A stretch of DNA of 34,851 nt from Flavobacteriales bacterium. GTDB taxonomy: Bacteria; Bacteroidota; Bacteroidia; Flavobacteriales_D; Sanyastnellaceae. The notes below the pieces were generated by a model. The model was not told the origin of the DNA and did no database searches. It was given only the letters and a program-made list of their open reading frames with translations. The position numbers were made by a program, and so were the translations under genes. The stretch covers positions 1 through 34,851 of the forward strand of contig JAQWQB010000019.1 of NCBI GenBank assembly GCA_029245065.1, given 5' to 3'. Shown here piece by piece: positions 2,311-33,819 of the stretch. Position 1 is the stretch's first letter; every line of letters begins with the position of its first letter.

Positions 2311-2796
2311 ATGAATGCTGAAGATCGCTGCCCATGTCAATCGGGGAATATCTACTTAAACTGCTGCTCACCCTACCATAAAGGCCTGCCAGCTCCTACC
2401 GCTGAAAAGCTCATGCGATCGCGCTACAGTGCATACGCCCTGCGAAATGTTCAATATTTGGTAGATACTACGCATTCTTCAACTCGCAAAGACCATCCGT
2501 ACGAAGCCATTGAAAAGTGGGCAGAACAAACCACATGGAAACGATTGGAAATTGTGCGCACGGAAAAAGGTACCTTGGAAGACTCGTCTGGAATCGTGGA
2601 ATTCAAGGCCACTTACAACGATGGCAGTTCAAGCGATGAAATACTGCATGAATCATCTCATTTCTTAAAGGAAAATGCCCGTTGGTATTATGTTGATGGG
2701 AAGCATTCACGCATTGCCATTCCCCGTCATCGAATTGGTCGGAATGACCCATGCACATGCGGAAGTGGTAAGAAATTCAAGAAATGTTGCGGGTAG
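2311..2796 (+). CDS. YchJ-family protein with two SEC-C motifs
   Basis: This 161-residue protein has a SEC-C zinc-binding motif at each end: [17 protein letters not shown] near residue 8 and [15 protein letters not shown] at the C-terminus. The middle region contains [20 protein letters not shown], the signature of the YchJ/UPF0225 family, and has the fold size of an NTF2-like domain. The molecular role of YchJ proteins is not settled; the SEC-C motif binds zinc, as in SecA, where it contacts SecB. It starts 16 bases after paaD on the same strand and could be the last gene of the paa transcript. That link is positional only. Family assignment is secure, function unknown. Confidence 0.88.
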
Positions 2797-2798
2797 GA

Positions 2799-2835
2799 TA
2801 CGTTGGTGAAATAAGGCCGTACGTTGGTGAAATAA
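2799..2835 (+). repeat. Two direct copies of a 16-base word with 21-base period
   Basis: The 16-base word TACGTTGGTGAAATAA occurs at 2799-2814 and again at 2820-2835, a perfect repeat with a 21-base period. It lies between the stop of the YchJ-type gene and the convergent beta-barrel gene. It has no inverted arms and no T-tract, so it does not look like a terminator. Replication slippage or a small regulatory site are both possible; only the repetition itself is visible. Confidence 0.75.
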
Positions 2836-2932
2836 TGGTCTATTTCGGGGTGGAAAGAGTTGGAGAATATTTTGGGAACCACGACCTTTAATCCGGGGAG
2901 GAGGAGTGGTGGCCCCCATGAGCAATAGACCT

Positions 2933-4009
2933 TTACGGACTCACCCAATTGATAGAAACATTAAAATAAGCCGGGTTTGTCAAGTCTGTTTCAGTGTAAA
3001 AAGGAGTATCATCTCCGAAGGGTCTGAAAAAATCTCCCCTGTCAATGTCATACGACCAATTATACCGGTAGCCTGCTTGAGCTGAAATCCAGAACTGCTT
3101 TGAAATAGCGTGTTCCCACGTGACACGAAATCGTAATTCTGAACGACGTAATTCCAAGTCATCGAATCCCAACTGATACTGATCATCGGTATTATTCAAA
3201 CGGAACGTATTCCCTTCAACCTCCCATCCAACAAGCAGCAAATTCTTATCGTTGATGTTTCGTCGGTAATTGAATCTTGCCGGCAAGAGCATTTCCAAGC
3301 CCCATTTTTTATTCGCAGCGGTATAAAGCATGTAGTAGACCGGCACATAGTTCAACGCGCCACCTAAGTATGTTCTACTTAAACCAACTCCCCATATTTT
3401 ACGGTCATTGGATTTCAATCCATAGATCAACGCTCCAGTGAACCTTGTGTACTCCAAAGACTGAATGTTTGACATGGCATAATCTCCATTCAAATTTGCT
3501 CCGAACTGAGCAATAATATAATGTTTGCTATTCAATGGCTTGAATCCTGTAGCTGTAAAACCCATTGAACGCAACGCGTTATTATTTAGCGCAGTGATTA
3601 ATGGGTCTTGGCTAGAAATAGCAGCATTCTTAAAATCGTAATTGGTTTCTGAGTAGGTCAACCCGAGATTCAACAGAAACGAATTCTTTGAATATACAGG
3701 GTAATTGAGCGCGAAACGTGTACCATGTGCTGCATTGATGTCCTCGTTTTGAGGTTGATTCTCAATTCCACCTATGGATGGGTTAAGCGTATGAGCCGTT
3801 TGAAAGTCATATCCAACAGACAATAGTTTTATGGGCGCTTGTCCAAGAACTCGGGAAGAGCAAAACGCTTTGTTCTTCTCCGTTTGCACTAGATTTGAAT
3901 AATCAAATTCCTCTTCTCCTTCTTCTTCCATTGGCGGGTCTTCTTGAGACACCACCGAAAAAGGCAGAAAAAAGAATAGAACAAAAAACGCTAGCAATAC
4001 TCCTCTCAT
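2933..4009 (-). CDS. Secreted beta-barrel-like protein, possibly DUF6268
   Basis: This 358-residue protein begins with a clear Sec signal peptide (hydrophobic residues 4-20, then VVSQEDPP). An acidic stretch, roughly residues 24-40, follows. The rest is built of alternating polar and aromatic strands with Tyr, Phe and Asn at strand ends and short glycine turns, as in outer-membrane beta-barrels (for example YIIAQFGANLNGDYAMSNI and SISINWVSP-like ending VSINWVSP). The pattern resembles the DUF6268 family of Bacteroidota outer-membrane proteins, which I recognise only from general style. It lies 9 bases downstream of the DUF2147 gene on the same strand and probably shares its transcript. Function is unknown. 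Confidence 0.72.
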   Translation of the reverse strand: MRGVLLAFFVLFFFLPFSVVSQEDPPMEEEGEEEFDYSNLVQTEKNKAFCSSRVLGQAPIKLLSVGYDFQTAHTLNPSIGGIENQPQNEDINAAHGTRFALNYPVYSKNSFLLNLGLTYSETNYDFKNAAISSQDPLITALNNNALRSMGFTATGFKPLNSKHYIIAQFGANLNGDYAMSNIQSLEYTRFTGALIYGLKSNDRKIWGVGLSRTYLGGALNYVPVYYMLYTAANKKWGLEMLLPARFNYRRNINDKNLLLVGWEVEGNTFRLNNTDDQYQLGFDDLELRRSELRFRVTWEHAISKQFWISAQAGYRYNWSYDIDRGDFFRPFGDDTPFYTETDLTNPAYFNVSINWVSP

Positions 4010-8424: not shown

Positions 8425-9183
8425 ATGAGAGCACTCCTTGTTATTTTTGCCGCAACACTTTTGTCAAGCTGAACCATCGTACGTCCGGGTCAAGTTGGCG
8501 TAAAACAGAAACTCGGTAAACTTTCTGAAGACGTCAAAACGGAAGGATCTATTTGGTTCAATCCGTTCATAACGAAAGTGTTGATTACTGATGTTCAAAT
8601 CAACGATTTAGAACTTACGTTGAGTCTTCCAAGTAAAGAAGGATTGAGTGTTACTTCTCAAATCTCTATCCTCTACCGAATTGACGCCAATATGTTGATT
8701 GATTTCCTCGAAAACATCGGGCCCGATCACGAAACAATTATCTCTAATGTATTTCGCTCTGCCAGTGCAGATATATGTGCCCAATGCTTCGCGAAAGACA
8801 TGCACTCAGGAATGCGTTCAGAAATTGAAGCCGCTATTCTAGCTCGGATGAATGAACTTTTACAGAAACAAGGCATCGTGATCGAAGCGGTCCTAATGAA
8901 AAGCATTAAACTCCCAAATGGTTTATCCAATAGTATTGAACAAAAACTGCAAGCAGAACAAGATGTGATGCGCATGGAATTCATTCTAGAGCAAGAGAAG
9001 CTTGAAGCAGAAAGAAAAGTGATAGAAGCCAACGGTACAAGAGATGCCAAGCTCATTCTTTCAGAAGGATTGACGGAAGAAATCATCCGAATCAGAAGCA
9101 TAGAGGCCTTCAGAGAGCTCGCCAACTCTGTGAACGCAAAAATTATCATCACCGACGGAAATTCGCCCATGATTGTTGAATAA
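8425..9183 (+). pseudogene. SPFH/prohibitin-like lipoprotein with TGA in place of the lipobox cysteine
   Basis: The frame from the ATG at 8425 reads MRALLVIFAATLLSS, then TGA (8470-8472), then TIVRPGQVGVKQKLGK and an uninterrupted prohibitin-like protein to 9183. The TGA occupies exactly the lipobox cysteine position (LLSS-C), so the ancestral codon was almost surely TGC or TGT, one base away. Without it the protein would be 252 residues: lipoprotein signal peptide, SPFH/Band 7 domain (about 20-170) and a coiled-coil tail rich in Glu/Lys (EQKLQAEQDVMRMEFILEQE). Prohibitin-family proteins scaffold membranes. After the TGA the next ATG is far inside the domain, with only a GTG or TTG near 8575, so a restart product would lack export and lipidation. 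It is a recent nonsense mutation or a sequencing error. Confidence 0.85.
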
Positions 9184-15741: not shown

Positions 15742-16278
15742 ATGAGTTCCATGTTGTTATCGCCTTTTAAAGTTGAACACTTTCCCCTCCTCTCCTCCTG
15801 GTTTGAAACAGCCAAGAATTTGTACGTCTTTGGTGGGCCTCAGTTTACGTTTCCACTGGACGAACAACAATTACAAGCCTATTCAGCAGATCAAGACAAG
15901 CACGCTTATTGCGCAGTAGACAAAACAAGCAACGAAACAGTTGGTCATTGCGAATTCAATTATTCAGAAGAAATCCCAACGCTTTCTAGGCTATTCATTA
16001 CCGCAAAACGAAGAGGTGAAGGATTGGGTGAAGAACTAGTGCGCATGATGAGTCAGATGCTATTCGAAAAGGAACAAATTCACGAAATACAGCTGTATGT
16101 TTTTGAATTCAATACCGCAGCGCGAAAGTGCTATGAAAAAGTAGGCTTCACCATTCGTCAAAAAGAAACGACTTACCTCAAAGTGGAAGGAGAAGTTTGG
16201 ACTCGGCTGAAGATGAAATTAACACGAAAGGAGTTTGAAATGAGCCAAGCGGAATTGAGCGAACCGAGTTTTACATGA
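15742..16278 (+). CDS. GNAT family N-acetyltransferase
   Basis: GNAT enzymes transfer an acetyl group from acetyl-CoA to an amine. The 178-residue protein shows the fold in order: an N-terminal KVEHFPLLSSWFETAKNLYV region, central strands with VGHCEFNYSEEIPTLSRLFI, the acetyl-CoA pyrophosphate-binding loop KRRGEGLGEELVRMM near residue 95, and the C-terminal FNTAARKCYEKVGFTIRQKE. The substrate cannot be predicted. The ATG at 15742 overlaps the stop of a short frame that I do not call as a gene. The last 20 residues are Glu-rich and probably lie outside the fold. Confidence 0.88.
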   Translation: MSSMLLSPFKVEHFPLLSSWFETAKNLYVFGGPQFTFPLDEQQLQAYSADQDKHAYCAVDKTSNETVGHCEFNYSEEIPTLSRLFITAKRRGEGLGEELVRMMSQMLFEKEQIHEIQLYVFEFNTAARKCYEKVGFTIRQKETTYLKVEGEVWTRLKMKLTRKEFEMSQAELSEPSFT

Positions 16279-18625: not shown

Positions 18626-18865
18626 ATGAAAAGGAATTCCAATCCACCTGAACAACAACCGAATAACCCCATGCATGGCATCAAATTAAAAGATGTCATG
18701 TATTTTCTGGTTGAAGAGTACGGCTGGGAATACATGGGTACGCATGTAGACATTAGGTGCTTTCAAAACAATCAGACCATTAAATCGAGTTTAAAATTCT
18801 TGCGTGAGCATCAATGGGCGCGTGATCAGGTTGAAGCGTTGTACTTGAAACTCAAAAAAGATTGA
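18626..18865 (+). CDS. VF530 family DNA-binding protein (DUF2132)
   Basis: This 79-residue protein matches the VF530/DUF2132 family: NPMHGIKLKDVMYFLVEEYG, then DIRCFQNNQTIKSSLKFL, then WARDQVEALYLKLKK. Family members are small helical proteins reported to bind double-stranded DNA; the cellular role is unclear. The Cys in RCF and the Trp in QWAR are family-conserved. The short polar N-terminus (KRNSNPPEQQPNN) is variable in the family. It is followed directly by the DUF5655-like gene. Confidence 0.9.
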   Translation: MKRNSNPPEQQPNNPMHGIKLKDVMYFLVEEYGWEYMGTHVDIRCFQNNQTIKSSLKFLREHQWARDQVEALYLKLKKD

Positions 18866-18867
18866 GC

Positions 18868-19272
18868 ATGTGGACTTGCCCCAAGTGTGAACGCAATTTC
18901 AAGACAACGAATCAATCGCACACTTGCTCAAACGTTGACATGGGCGAACTTTTCCTTGGCAAACCAGACAATCTTGTGCTGGCATTTGACGCACTCTTAA
19001 TGGAGGTATCAAAATGGACACCCTGTTCAGCAGGTACCGCCAAGAACAGCATCGTTTTCGCTTCCAAGAAGGCTTGGCTGATTGTGAAGCCAATGACCAA
19101 AGAGTTGGACTTAAAATTCTACAACGACGAGCCGTTGGATTCGTATCGCTTGAAAAAAGTAAGTGCTTCATTTGGTAAATACGCCCATCACATCCGTGTC
19201 AAATCTGAAGTTGAATTAGATCAAGAACTGTATGCCATATTGCGCATTGGCTTTAACCACTCGTTGAAATAG
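18868..19272 (+). CDS. DUF5655-like protein with N-terminal zinc knuckle
   Basis: The 134-residue protein opens with a small zinc-binding pattern, CPKCERNFKTTNQSHTC (two CxxC cysteines, then His and Cys). The rest resembles the DUF5655 fold: FDALLMEVSKWTPCSAGTAK, then IVFASKKAWLIVKPMTKELD and a closing KYAHHIRVKSEVELDQELYA. The function of this domain is unknown. A TTG at 18862 overlaps the VF530 stop; the ATG at 18868 is preferred because family-like sequence begins with MWTCPKC. The gene is probably co-transcribed with VF530. Confidence 0.8.
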   Translation: MWTCPKCERNFKTTNQSHTCSNVDMGELFLGKPDNLVLAFDALLMEVSKWTPCSAGTAKNSIVFASKKAWLIVKPMTKELDLKFYNDEPLDSYRLKKVSASFGKYAHHIRVKSEVELDQELYAILRIGFNHSLK

Positions 19273-19310
19273 GCCTCATTTTTGTGTCGAATTTGCTAAA
19301 CCTCATTTCA

Positions 19311-20030
19311 ATGTTTCTCAAGGCTATTCCATTTTTCTCGATTATCAGTATTTCATTTTTGCTCACAGTCAGTTTTACCACAAAAGAAGAAGTCTATGTT
19401 ACTTTCGAGGCAAACAGCAAGGATCATACGATTCAGCTATTCTACAAAGACGGAGCTGGTGAACGCTATGGCAGTCTAGGGAAATTGCAGAGTTCCCTTC
19501 GAGAAGATTCCATGGAGCTGGTGTTCGCCATGAATGCAGGGATGTACATGGAAGACAGACAGCCATTAGGGCTCTACATTGAATCTGGAAAAGAAATACG
19601 TCCACTTAATCAACGTAACAGTTCATCTGGTAACTTCTACCTCATGCCAAATGGCGTGTTTGCAATTGATAAACAAGGTAAAATGTCCGTCTGCCAAACG
19701 GAAGATTTCCATCTTCTTCAAGACATTGCTTTTGCCACTCAATCTGGCCCCATGCTTTTGATTAACGGGGAAATGCACCCTGCCTTTAACAAGGGATCAA
19801 GTAACCTCAATATAAGAAATGGAGTAGGCATCCTTCCCAATGGCAATTTACTTTGTGTTATGTCTAAACAGCCCGGCAACTTCTATGATTTTGCCTCGCT
19901 CTTTGCGTCCAAAGGTTGCCAAAACGCATTGTATTTAGATGGATTTGTATCGAAAGTCTATTATCCAGAGGGAGAATGGGTCCAAAAAGGCGGTAATTTC
20001 GGAGCTATCATTGCCATTACCGCCAAATAA
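19311..20030 (+). CDS. Phosphodiester glycosidase family protein (NAGPA-like)
   Basis: The protein resembles the phosphodiester glycosidase domain of the mammalian uncovering enzyme NAGPA and its bacterial relatives (also called DUF2233), which cleave sugar-phosphodiester bonds. The ATG at 19311 gives 239 residues with an N-terminal membrane-spanning or signal segment (FFSIISISFLLTVSF). Core motifs are FAMNAGMYMEDRQPLGLYIE, SGNFYLMPNGVFAI, FATQSGPMLLINGEMHPAF, RNGVGILPNG, and near the end NALYLDGFVSKVYYPEG. A GTG at 19284 would add nine residues. The protein probably acts outside the cytoplasm. The family fit is good; the substrate is unknown. Confidence 0.88.
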   Translation: MFLKAIPFFSIISISFLLTVSFTTKEEVYVTFEANSKDHTIQLFYKDGAGERYGSLGKLQSSLREDSMELVFAMNAGMYMEDRQPLGLYIESGKEIRPLNQRNSSSGNFYLMPNGVFAIDKQGKMSVCQTEDFHLLQDIAFATQSGPMLLINGEMHPAFNKGSSNLNIRNGVGILPNGNLLCVMSKQPGNFYDFASLFASKGCQNALYLDGFVSKVYYPEGEWVQKGGNFGAIIAITAK

Positions 20031-20366: not shown

Positions 20367-20876
20367 ATGACTCATTTTTATCCAGATTCGTCTTATTCAA
20401 GTTTTCAATATGTGAAAGCACTCATTTTTGGGCTGTTCTTTTTCCTCCTTTTTCTGGGTTTAAGTCATTGGTCTCTCCTTATTCCAATGGTGTACCTTCC
20501 GGTTATAATTTTCAAAAAAGAAGGAATAGAAATTGACGACTTTAAACAACGCTTCCGTCGAACTTCTCGGCCTCGCGCTAGCAAAAAGCCCTGGGAAAAG
20601 GCGAATGATTTCGAAGGAGTCGTGATCAAAAAATTCTTGGGAAAGAAAATTGTTCGAGGCGGTGTAACAATGCCTAGTGCCGGAATAACTGCGCAGACTG
20701 AAAGCTATAATGTTTTCATTATGGATTCAACACACCGTCAACAGGTGTTTATTACTGAATGCAAAACCTATTCAAACGCATTGGAAAAAGCTAAGACAAT
20801 TAGTAAGCAAACCGGACTCCCCATACAAGCCTTTAATCCAAAGGTAATTTCGAAGCATCCCAGAAGAAGACGATAA
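20367..20876 (+). CDS. Hypothetical membrane-anchored protein with basic soluble domain
   Basis: I recognise no family. The 169-residue protein has an N-terminal hydrophobic region (residues 15-50: VKALIFGLFFFLLFLGL, then WSLLIPMVYLPVIIF), probably two short helices. A basic linker follows (RFRRTSRPRASKKP), then a soluble beta/alpha part with FEGVVIKKFLGKKIVRGGVT and YNVFIMDSTHRQQVFITECK. It ends in HPRRRR. The ATG at 20367 leaves no room for a ribosome site because the terminator T-run touches it; a GTG near 20412, just before the hydrophobic region, is an alternative start. The stop overlaps the ATG at 20876 of the next frame. Confidence 0.65.
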   Translation: MTHFYPDSSYSSFQYVKALIFGLFFFLLFLGLSHWSLLIPMVYLPVIIFKKEGIEIDDFKQRFRRTSRPRASKKPWEKANDFEGVVIKKFLGKKIVRGGVTMPSAGITAQTESYNVFIMDSTHRQQVFITECKTYSNALEKAKTISKQTGLPIQAFNPKVISKHPRRRR

Positions 20877-20920
20877 TGGTTTGGCTCGAAAGTTGCTTAG
20901 CTTTAGGCAAAACAAGCCCT

Positions 20921-21463
20921 ATGCTTCAACGCTTTCTCTTCATTCTAGCCGTTTGCTCTTCCTTAGCAGCATACGCACAAAATGACCGCATAGACACGGT
21001 TTGGGTAGAACCTTACAAAAGCGTGAGCTACCAAGCCTTTTTTAAGACCTTAAACATCAATTCAAGGCCTTATTCAGAATACATTCAAGGGTTTGAATTC
21101 GAATGGGGAAATACCTACGAACTTGTAGTGCAAGTGACCGTTCTTGAAAATCCTCCTATGGATGGTTCATCTATTGAATACAAACTACTGGAAGTACTTG
21201 AAAAAAACAGCGTCCCTCAAGCCTATACTTTTCAGCTTAGCTTGCATCACGAGGTGTACCTTGGACCGCCGATGGACGGAGAAGAGACCAGTCCTTTCAA
21301 GCTGATTGAACCAGGTCTATTCAGCTATTTTGATGACGTCGAAATGGTCATACCAGAAGAGAAAATGGCGGAATTTGAGGCGTTCTTAAAAAAGAAAATC
21401 GACCGAAAAGGAATCTTCCATTTTGATGATGGAGGACGAATCGTATTTGAAAATTTTAAATGA
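20921..21463 (+). CDS. Secreted DUF4377-domain protein
   Basis: The 180-residue product starts with a clean signal peptide (MLQRFLFILAVCSSLAAYAQ). It carries the DUF4377 pattern: YIQGFEFEWGNTYELVVQVT, then NPPMDGSSIEYKLLEVLEKN. The domain is known from small secreted or lipoproteins related to heat-shock protein HslJ regions; no activity is established. An ATG at 20876 overlaps the previous stop and would add 15 residues before the signal peptide, so the ATG at 20921 is preferred. A strong terminator follows the stop directly. Confidence 0.82.
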   Translation: MLQRFLFILAVCSSLAAYAQNDRIDTVWVEPYKSVSYQAFFKTLNINSRPYSEYIQGFEFEWGNTYELVVQVTVLENPPMDGSSIEYKLLEVLEKNSVPQAYTFQLSLHHEVYLGPPMDGEETSPFKLIEPGLFSYFDDVEMVIPEEKMAEFEAFLKKKIDRKGIFHFDDGGRIVFENFK

Positions 21464-28027: not shown

Positions 28028-28456
28028 ATGAAAGTACAGGAAAACCACACGATTCGCGTGCATTACAAAGGCACCCTGAATGATGGAGAAATGTTTGATT
28101 CTAGTGAAGGCCGCGAGCCACTTGAGTTCACTGTTGGAGCTGGACAAGTAATCCCAGGTTTTGATGCTGCCGTTCTAGGCATGGAAGTAGGTGAAGACAA
28201 AACGTTTGACATCCCTGCAGATGAGGCATATGGTCAAATGGATGAACGTCTTGTTCAGAAAGTTGAGCGTAGCCAGCTTCCACCTGAATTGAACCCTGAA
28301 CCAGGAATGATGCTTTCTTCAACGATGCCTGACGGTCAGCAGATCCCAGTTAAAGTTGCTGAAGTAACTGAAGAGCACGTAATGATCGATGCCAACCATC
28401 CACTTGCTGGAAAAGACTTGACATTCGCTATCTCTCTTGTAGAGATCGTGAAATAA
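28028..28456 (+). CDS. slyD: FKBP-type peptidyl-prolyl isomerase, SlyD-like
   Basis: The enzyme speeds cis-trans isomerisation of Xaa-Pro bonds and acts as a folding helper. The 142-residue protein has the FKBP core with its SlyD-type insert: IRVHYKGTLNDGEMFDSSEG, then VGAGQVIPGFDAAVLGMEVG, then FDIPADEAYGQMDERLVQKV. The insert-in-flap region spans about residues 70-120 (QLPPELNPEPGMMLS), and the core closes with AGKDLTFAISLVEI. The His/Cys-rich metal-binding tail of E. coli SlyD is absent. A promoter candidate and a strong terminator suggest a single-gene transcript. Confidence 0.92.
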   Translation: MKVQENHTIRVHYKGTLNDGEMFDSSEGREPLEFTVGAGQVIPGFDAAVLGMEVGEDKTFDIPADEAYGQMDERLVQKVERSQLPPELNPEPGMMLSSTMPDGQQIPVKVAEVTEEHVMIDANHPLAGKDLTFAISLVEIVK

Positions 28457-29128: not shown

Positions 29129-29374
29129 ATGAAATACCTCATCGCAAGTTTACTCATTGCTTTTTGTTTCAGCGCCCACGCCCAAACACAGGAGGCCCCT
29201 TCCGCCCCTAAAGGCAAAGAAGCTATTTACGCCAAAGATAAAAGAGGCGATAACGTCTGTACTTACCAGAAAGGCACGAAATTAACACCGAAAAATTTTC
29301 ACAAGAAGCAACGAAGACGCAGAAAAGCGTTGCGAAAATCTGGCTATTACTTTTTCGGTTGTCCTTCATTCTAA
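29129..29374 (+). CDS. Small secreted Arg/Lys-rich protein, paralogue A
   Basis: This 81-residue product has a signal peptide (MKYLIASLLIAFCFSAHAQ) and a mature part of about 60 residues. The core IYAKDKRGDNVCTYQKGTKL holds one cysteine. A strongly basic stretch follows (KKQRRRRKALRKSGYYFFGC) and ends near the second cysteine, four residues from the C-terminus. The next gene encodes a clear paralogue with the same layout (GDNVC, QRRR, aromatic residues and Cys near the end). The two cysteines could form one disulfide that loops the basic segment. No family is known to me. Together with the deiminase gene downstream it forms a three-gene, same-strand group. Confidence 0.75.
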   Translation: MKYLIASLLIAFCFSAHAQTQEAPSAPKGKEAIYAKDKRGDNVCTYQKGTKLTPKNFHKKQRRRRKALRKSGYYFFGCPSF

Positions 29375-29385
29375 CTAAGTGAATC

Positions 29386-29628
29386 ATGAAGCACCTTATC
29401 TTATTATTCATGCTCTTCTTTTCGTTGAACGCAGCAGCGCAATCGGCTAGCAATTCGTCAGAGACGGTGGCTACAGAACACGCAATCATACAAGATTCCC
29501 ACGGAGACAATGTCTGTTCGAAAGATGAAAAAGTCTTGCCCAAAGAGGCCGTCCAGAAACCTTCAAAACAACGGAGAAGATATAAGAGAAGACGGTTGAA
29601 GCGCTACCGTTGTATTTACTTCTACTAA
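29386..29628 (+). CDS. Small secreted Arg/Lys-rich protein, paralogue B
   Basis: The 80-residue product has a signal peptide (MKHLILLFMLFFSLNAAAQ). The mature part includes AIIQDSHGDNVCSKDEKVLP and the basic tail SKQRRRYKRRRLKRYRCIYF. It shares with its upstream neighbour the signal peptide style, the GDNVC motif, the (K)QRRR cluster, and a final Cys among aromatic residues, though most other positions differ. That points to an old tandem duplication held by selection on these features. It begins 11 bases after paralogue A and ends 44 bases before the deiminase gene. Function is unknown. Confidence 0.75.
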   Translation: MKHLILLFMLFFSLNAAAQSASNSSETVATEHAIIQDSHGDNVCSKDEKVLPKEAVQKPSKQRRRYKRRRLKRYRCIYFY

Positions 29629-32487: not shown

Positions 32488-33819
32488 TTAGTTTCCTAAC
32501 ATCTTTCTGGCAACATCAGCACCAAGCAGTTCCGTGAGGATACCATTGTTCCCTTTCTGTTCTCCCGAGATGTATACTTCAGGCAAGGTCAAAGCAGAGA
32601 TGGCTTGTGCCACTCCAATGGCTACTTCCTTATCAATTTGAGCTCTATCCTGCGGTGAAAGTCCGGCTGCCACGAGCTTCGAGTTTTCGTAGTACGATGC
32701 GTCGGCGGCCACTTTCTTACGAGCGGCTCTTAATTGTTCCGCCTCGAGGTTTAACTTTTCTTCTTCTACAATGTAGACAGCTGCTTTTGCTTTTGTTTCA
32801 GCGGCAATGGTTTCCTTGATCTGCATTTTCTCCAATCTAGCTCGTTCCTCTGCCTTCTCACGCTCTCCTTTCTGGATAGCCTTTTGAGTTGCATAGTATT
32901 CCTTTTCTGCTTCTTGTTTTTCCAACTGAGTTTGCGCTACCTGTTCTTTCTGAAGTTGTAGTCTCGTATCGAAGCTTGGCTCCCAGTCAATGTTGGTTAC
33001 TGCCGCTTGAATTACGGTCAGTCCGTACTTTTTCAATGAGTTCGAAGTATCACGCATTGGGTCTCCTGCAGCATTTTTACGGATTCGATAAGCGCGTTGT
33101 TTTTCAAGGCTAGCGGCTCCGCTAACAACGGTTCGCTTGACCGTTGAATCTCCAATGACATCCACTTTGGCAGAATCAATGTCCTCCTCTGTCAAGTACA
33201 TTCCGTTTTCAAGTTGATCACGCAAGTAGTAATCAAATTGCGCCGAGGCTCCTGAGATGTATTCCTGGGCACTCATTAGCTTGCATGTATTCTTCAACGC
33301 TTGTTCGTACACAGGAATAATTCTTCCGTAAACGAGGCGCTCTTCTGAACGGTTTTTGTCTGCCATATCGAGGAATTTCGCTTTGTCTTTGTAGTTGATG
33401 CCAATCACAAGCGATGTAGCAATATCTGCCTTGATGGCGTCGGAAAATTCACGCTGTTTTGCGCGTTGGTAGTAGATTCCCTCTTCCCGTGGAGATTCTT
33501 CATTCAAGATATCTTGAATAGGAATTTCGAAACTCATTGGAATCAATCGTCCCCAATACTTGAATTTAATTCCTTGTGAAGTGATGGCTTGGTCTCCACC
33601 CCATAGGTATTGGACTGCATAAGCCGTACCCGGCTTGGCATAGAATGTTAATCCGTTCAAACCAGCGACGATAATACCGGCAAAAATAAGCAGCACAGCT
33701 CGGCTTGTTGTAATTCCTTTGAGTACAGGAATCTTTTGTTTGACTGAATCTGGTAGTAAAAATACTGCCACGGCGATGGCGAAAAGAATAGCGGCTATAA
33801 GCCCTAGAATAAAGTTCAT
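32488..33819 (-). CDS. SPFH/prohibitin-flotillin-like membrane protein
   Basis: The 443-residue protein has two N-terminal hydrophobic segments (residues 3-22 and 41-60). A Band 7/SPFH domain follows (about 65-275: AKPGTAYAVQYLWGGDQAIT, DAIKADIATSLVIGINYKDK, YGLTVIQAAVTNIDW). A long charged coiled coil runs over about 285-390 (EKQEAEKEYYATQKAIQKGE). The ending VAIGVAQAISALTLPEVYIS recalls flotillin and prohibitin C-termini. Such proteins form membrane rings or microdomains that control proteases and transport. It is unrelated in position to the interrupted SPFH lipoprotein at 8425 and much longer, so it is probably not a simple replacement for it. Confidence 0.86.
   Translation of the reverse strand: MNFILGLIAAILFAIAVAVFLLPDSVKQKIPVLKGITTSRAVLLIFAGIIVAGLNGLTFYAKPGTAYAVQYLWGGDQAITSQGIKFKYWGRLIPMSFEIPIQDILNEESPREEGIYYQRAKQREFSDAIKADIATSLVIGINYKDKAKFLDMADKNRSEERLVYGRIIPVYEQALKNTCKLMSAQEYISGASAQFDYYLRDQLENGMYLTEEDIDSAKVDVIGDSTVKRTVVSGAASLEKQRAYRIRKNAAGDPMRDTSNSLKKYGLTVIQAAVTNIDWEPSFDTRLQLQKEQVAQTQLEKQEAEKEYYATQKAIQKGEREKAEERARLEKMQIKETIAAETKAKAAVYIVEEEKLNLEAEQLRAARKKVAADASYYENSKLVAAGLSPQDRAQIDKEVAIGVAQAISALTLPEVYISGEQKGNNGILTELLGADVARKMLGN

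Follow-up and report, generated by a model that had tools for sequence, protein, structure and literature searches.

An SPFH gene interrupted by one in-frame stop

The window, i.e., the whole stretch of 34,851 nucleotides that was analysed, is contig JAQWQB010000019.1 of a Flavobacteriales bacterium (assembly GCA_029245065.1; 3.19 Mb, 143 contigs, 98.35% complete). On its plus strand lies a reading frame that starts at ATG 8425, ends at a regular TAA terminator at 9181-9183 and is interrupted once, by an in-frame TGA at 8470-8472. The 15 codons upstream of the TGA (8425-8469, MRALLVIFAATLLSS) read as a lipoprotein signal peptide, and relatives carry a similar hydrophobic stretch, in which SS, AS or TS often immediately precedes a cysteine. 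The 236 open codons downstream (8473-9180, plus strand) encode the mature part of a prohibitin-like SPFH (Band_7) protein. Translation of 8425-9183 therefore confirmed the original prediction of a frame open for 15 codons and then open to 9183, with a single TGA as its defect. Since the frame is open on either side of the lone stop, with a signal peptide before it and a conserved domain after it in the same register, the arrangement far exceeds coincidence. The first in-frame start codon farther downstream is GTG 8578, which in the list of open reading frames is the putative start of a 201-aa frame (8578-9183, plus strand) that would lack the signal peptide along with 35 residues at the start of the SPFH part. 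Scanning the surroundings of the gene for promoters and terminators gave no signal above shuffles.

The 236-residue part matches the Pfam profile Band_7/SPFH (PF01145) at E 4.8e-29, with 102.1 bits against a cut-off of 23.6, and the nearest solved chains by sequence are prohibitins (9urz_B, 2.3e-15; 8rrh_B, 6.7e-12). The NCBIfam hflC match is weak (17.8 bits vs a cut-off of 134.4). A single-chain structure model (m222d954f1afb; window protein plus 33 relatives; mean pLDDT 84.8) has an SPFH domain followed by a long C-terminal coiled-coil helix (149-199), and Foldseek matched it to human PHB1/2 at 7e-15 and to HflK/C assemblies at 3e-13, and also to stomatin. The protein thus resembles the prohibitin/stomatin/HflC-type SPFH proteins in its Pfam match, its prohibitin chain matches and its domain followed by a long helix, whereas its relatives differ from that type in having a lipobox signal peptide instead of an N-terminal transmembrane anchor. 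In the named collection, the closest match (74% identity) comes from an uncultured Flavobacteriales bacterium. The window also encodes another, distant Band_7 protein at 32488-33819 on the minus strand, and the genome has five Band_7 matches in total.

In the two nearest genomes, synteny beyond the SPFH gene was found neither in 60 kb of a 105 kb contig of G033 nor in a 25 kb contig of G015. Relatives of the window reading frame 28028-28456 (plus strand), whose product resembles an FKBP-type isomerase, are direct neighbours of the SPFH gene in the two sister genomes (L128 near 18746-19908; L131/L132 near G015:C20 20086-21170); in the window this frame lies about 19 kb away. Close to it, the adjacent small reading frames 29129-29374 and 29386-29628 (plus strand) are of similar length, both with a signal-peptide-like start, and are possibly tandem copies.

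The lipobox cysteine among relatives

The codon aligned to the TGA was compared among 104 loci, of which 29 came from 60 relatives (the window's own locus excluded), 65 from named genomes and 10 more from 114 genomes of the family. Twenty-two loci were left out: four duplicates, five with a match that is cut or short of the site (L004, L016, L052, L060 and L089), one without a match at 1e-20 (L109) and 12 distant SPFH loci. L098 was counted from a separate alignment because its best piece in the main comparison begins further downstream. All the remaining 82 distinct subfamily relatives in view, down to 26% identity, have TGC or TGT at this codon, and their cysteine stands immediately before the SPFH part, so that the signal peptide of this gene family ends at an invariant Cys. 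The window copy is the sole one seen with TGA there. The TGA was thus confirmed to stand where an SPFH lipoprotein has its lipobox Cys, and a family alignment devoid of the cysteine, which the original prediction had named as evidence against itself, was looked for among the same relatives with the opposite result.

In the 12 distant SPFH loci (L019-L030), the N terminus carries a transmembrane-like stretch and the aligned position lacks Cys; L019 aligns from residue 2 and has Phe, and the other 11 align from residue 19 or later only. Judging from these alignments, the lipobox Cys is a mark of this Bacteroidota prohibitin-like SPFH subfamily. The subfamily copies are found at loci L046-L110, L002-L018 and L118-L127, with Cys in all distinct copies in view; Polaribacter irgensii has an intact relative. 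Since every copy seen has the cysteine, the membrane anchor would be a lipid and the scaffold would face the envelope, unlike in transmembrane-anchored SPFH proteins; a lipid anchor thus seems to replace the transmembrane anchor in this subfamily. The parts consulted of a survey of SPFH evolution describe most subfamilies as having N-terminal transmembrane regions and two as soluble (2009, PMC2636767), and no use of the word "lipoprotein" was counted in the paper. SPFH lipoproteins of Bacteroidota are described in none of the open-licence papers listed by the literature searches.

The invariant cysteine also bears on what could still be made from the interrupted gene. The GTG at 8578 opens a frame of 201 codons, and an internal restart at this codon would yield a cytosolic, anchor-free SPFH protein retaining part of the function. 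Such a product would, however, lack the first 35 SPFH residues, including the model strands E7-13 and E16-22, as well as export to the envelope, whereas all relatives in view have Cys directly before the SPFH part. We regard an internal restart as highly improbable.

The TGA as a stop codon

A TGA at an invariant Cys followed by conserved sequence is what a selenocysteine codon typically looks like, and bacterial selenoproteins likewise have TGA where homologues have Cys. If the TGA were decoded, either as selenocysteine or as cysteine or tryptophan via a suppressor or leaky read-through, a full-length protein would result; with tryptophan, the SPFH protein would remain uncleaved and signal-anchored. 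We know of no lipid-modified lipobox selenocysteine.

The searches argue against decoding and set this gene apart from known selenoprotein genes. SelA has no match in the genome at its 98.35% completeness, and SelB and tRNA-Sec have none above the cut-off. The tRNA-Sec model gave nine matches below the cut-off, which sit on ordinary tRNAs: eight are at loci where ARAGORN finds ordinary tRNAs, and the ninth, C110:4552, is a tRNA-Ser(gga). There is no UCA anticodon among the 32 genome tRNAs above the cut-off, and tRNA-Cys occurs only with GCA; all of these tRNAs were typed by ARAGORN, with 26 of 30 loci given and the remainder inside those, and since 150 of the 194 first-look candidates were scored, a very odd tRNA could escape. 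The RNA past the stop forms no SECIS-like hairpin, with a z of 0.31 and 123 of 200 shuffles folding equally well. No homologue in view has TGA at the site.

The ordinary use of TGA as a terminator is evident in the same genome. The gene for release factor 2, prfB, is intact (471.6 bits), and TGA terminates nine of the 36 listed reading frames of the window, hypothetical ones included; a GNAT gene (15742-16278) and a DUF4377 gene (20876-21463) are among the nine. In-frame stops are also absent from the genome's 44 ABC-transporter (ABC_tran) matches. Selenocysteine, cysteine and tryptophan were each rejected as the meaning of this TGA by the genome searches and by the absence of TGA from every relative in view. 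The TGA is accordingly read as a stop, and recoding is very unlikely; we give decoding to a full-length protein even less credence than internal restart. The least probable reading of all is a real, maintained TGA with low-level read-through, which would give a little SPFH protein whose lipobox carries a different residue. If that were true, the uncleaved signal peptide would anchor the protein at the inner membrane, a one-base switch of anchor type.

The position of the stop calls for no mechanism of its own, since 80 of the 251 other codons of the gene are also one base away from a stop (81 when the lipobox codon is included). Given any nonsense mutation, the lipobox would be struck in about 1 of 81 cases, a figure to be read with the fact that this TGA was noticed because it is striking. 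The original prediction stressed the loss of the residue needed for lipidation. The Cys codon is indeed gone from the window copy, but this is a secondary effect, because termination after 15 codons abolishes the entire mature protein.

Age, reality and likely cause of the break

If the gene has been broken for long, then the sequence downstream of the stop would be expected to have decayed. The window protein retains 41 of the 42 columns that are invariant in 43 relatives, and no second stop occurs in the 236 codons. When neutral mutation was simulated, this outcome had a probability of 0.28 at 0.02 substitutions per site, 0.056 at 0.04 and 0.015 at 0.05, in simulations without indels, whose absence from the gene would tighten the limit. 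Neutral drift since the break thus amounts to at most roughly 0.05 substitutions per site. With the conserved columns kept and these low probabilities, the break is young relative to the divergence from the sister genus, or it is unreal, which fits the original description of the event as recent or false.

Branch-specific measures add little to this estimate. A home-made codon model put dS at 11 or higher on the majority of the branches tried; with synonymous sites saturated in comparisons with the relatives, branch dN/dS is uninformative. In the protein tree, the window's branch is longer (0.307) than those of its sister pair (about 0.19-0.20), which could mean slightly relaxed constraint before the break. 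Change in invariant columns per branch length is 3.26 for the window vs 0.88 pooled over the 43 others, a difference that carries no weight as it stems from one event. At columns with 90% identity the window differs at 4 of 73, which is unremarkable.

The gene is patchily distributed in the family, and other copies are broken as well. A match at E <= 1e-30 was found in 22 of the 114 family genomes, the window's own included, and in 15 of the 50 with a completeness of 90% or more and a contamination of 5% or less. The window's genus (g1) is represented among the compared genomes by its own genome alone. In the sister genus, the copy L003 (G015:C20:19297-20004, 71% identity) has a normal lipobox Cys and its own in-frame TAA later, and is otherwise intact; G033, a congener of G015, has an intact copy (L002). 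A further copy, L098 (a MAG record, match at 2501-3207), has a frameshift after about 133 codons with the remainder in another frame, and is intact otherwise. The tree groups the window copy with L003 and L046, and two of these three are broken, by different lesions. With close matches in so few genomes, an own stop in L003 and a frameshift in L098, the SPFH lipoprotein gene looks dispensable in this family. The separate lesions fit repeated loss, but they also fit errors, as L098 is a MAG record.

If the consensus or the assembly is wrong, the organism's gene is intact, and the TGA is confined to the deposited sequence or to a minority strain within a mixed population. Such an error would alter a single base and leave everything else intact, as is the case here, and the only other broken relatives seen, L003 and the MAG record L098, are likewise single lesions in otherwise intact genes; 14 loci with non-MAG titles (of 65 titles) have no stop in the matched stretch. 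Against an error, there is no homopolymer at the site, and no in-frame stop occurs in the ABC_tran matches of the window's genome (0 in 44), nor in those of G015 (41) and G033 (42), so that false stops are not widespread in these three genomes. The matched stretches in the searches for SelB-like (7), prfB-like (2) and Band_7 (5) proteins are likewise free of stops. In most genomes, real recent pseudogenes are commoner than consensus errors from short reads. On these points we consider an error unlikely, in a weighing against a real mutation that rests on assumed prior rates of base errors and of pseudogenes.

In all likelihood, the break reflects either a recent gene-breaking mutation of an ordinary kind or a mistake in base calling, and not a novel mode of decoding. 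Of these two, the probable explanation is a nonsense allele that arose recently in a dispensable SPFH lipoprotein gene. On this account, the lipobox of a prohibitin-like SPFH lipoprotein gene of Bacteroidota would have lost its cysteine codon to a point mutation that created a stop, and translation from ATG 8425 would be terminated by release factor 2 after 15 codons. The product would be a signal-peptide fragment only, with no lipid-anchored SPFH protein. This would be a fresh loss of function, with a downstream frame too young to have decayed, and such losses would be tolerable if the gene is dispensable in the family. We infer both the reality of the base and the absence of a protein product. 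Like an ordinary nonsense pseudogene, the window copy has a single stop, while the gene, patchy in the family, is otherwise collinear and conserved, and the lesion disrupts a site conserved in homologues; it differs in that further decay is so far absent.

By itself, a further nonsense allele or base error is of minor importance. The locus is a clean case of a selenocysteine-like pattern, with TGA at an invariant Cys and conserved sequence downstream, arising where no selenocysteine machinery was found. The more useful by-product, and the better lead, is a Bacteroidota prohibitin-like SPFH subfamily with a conserved lipobox Cys, which is predicted to be lipid-anchored.
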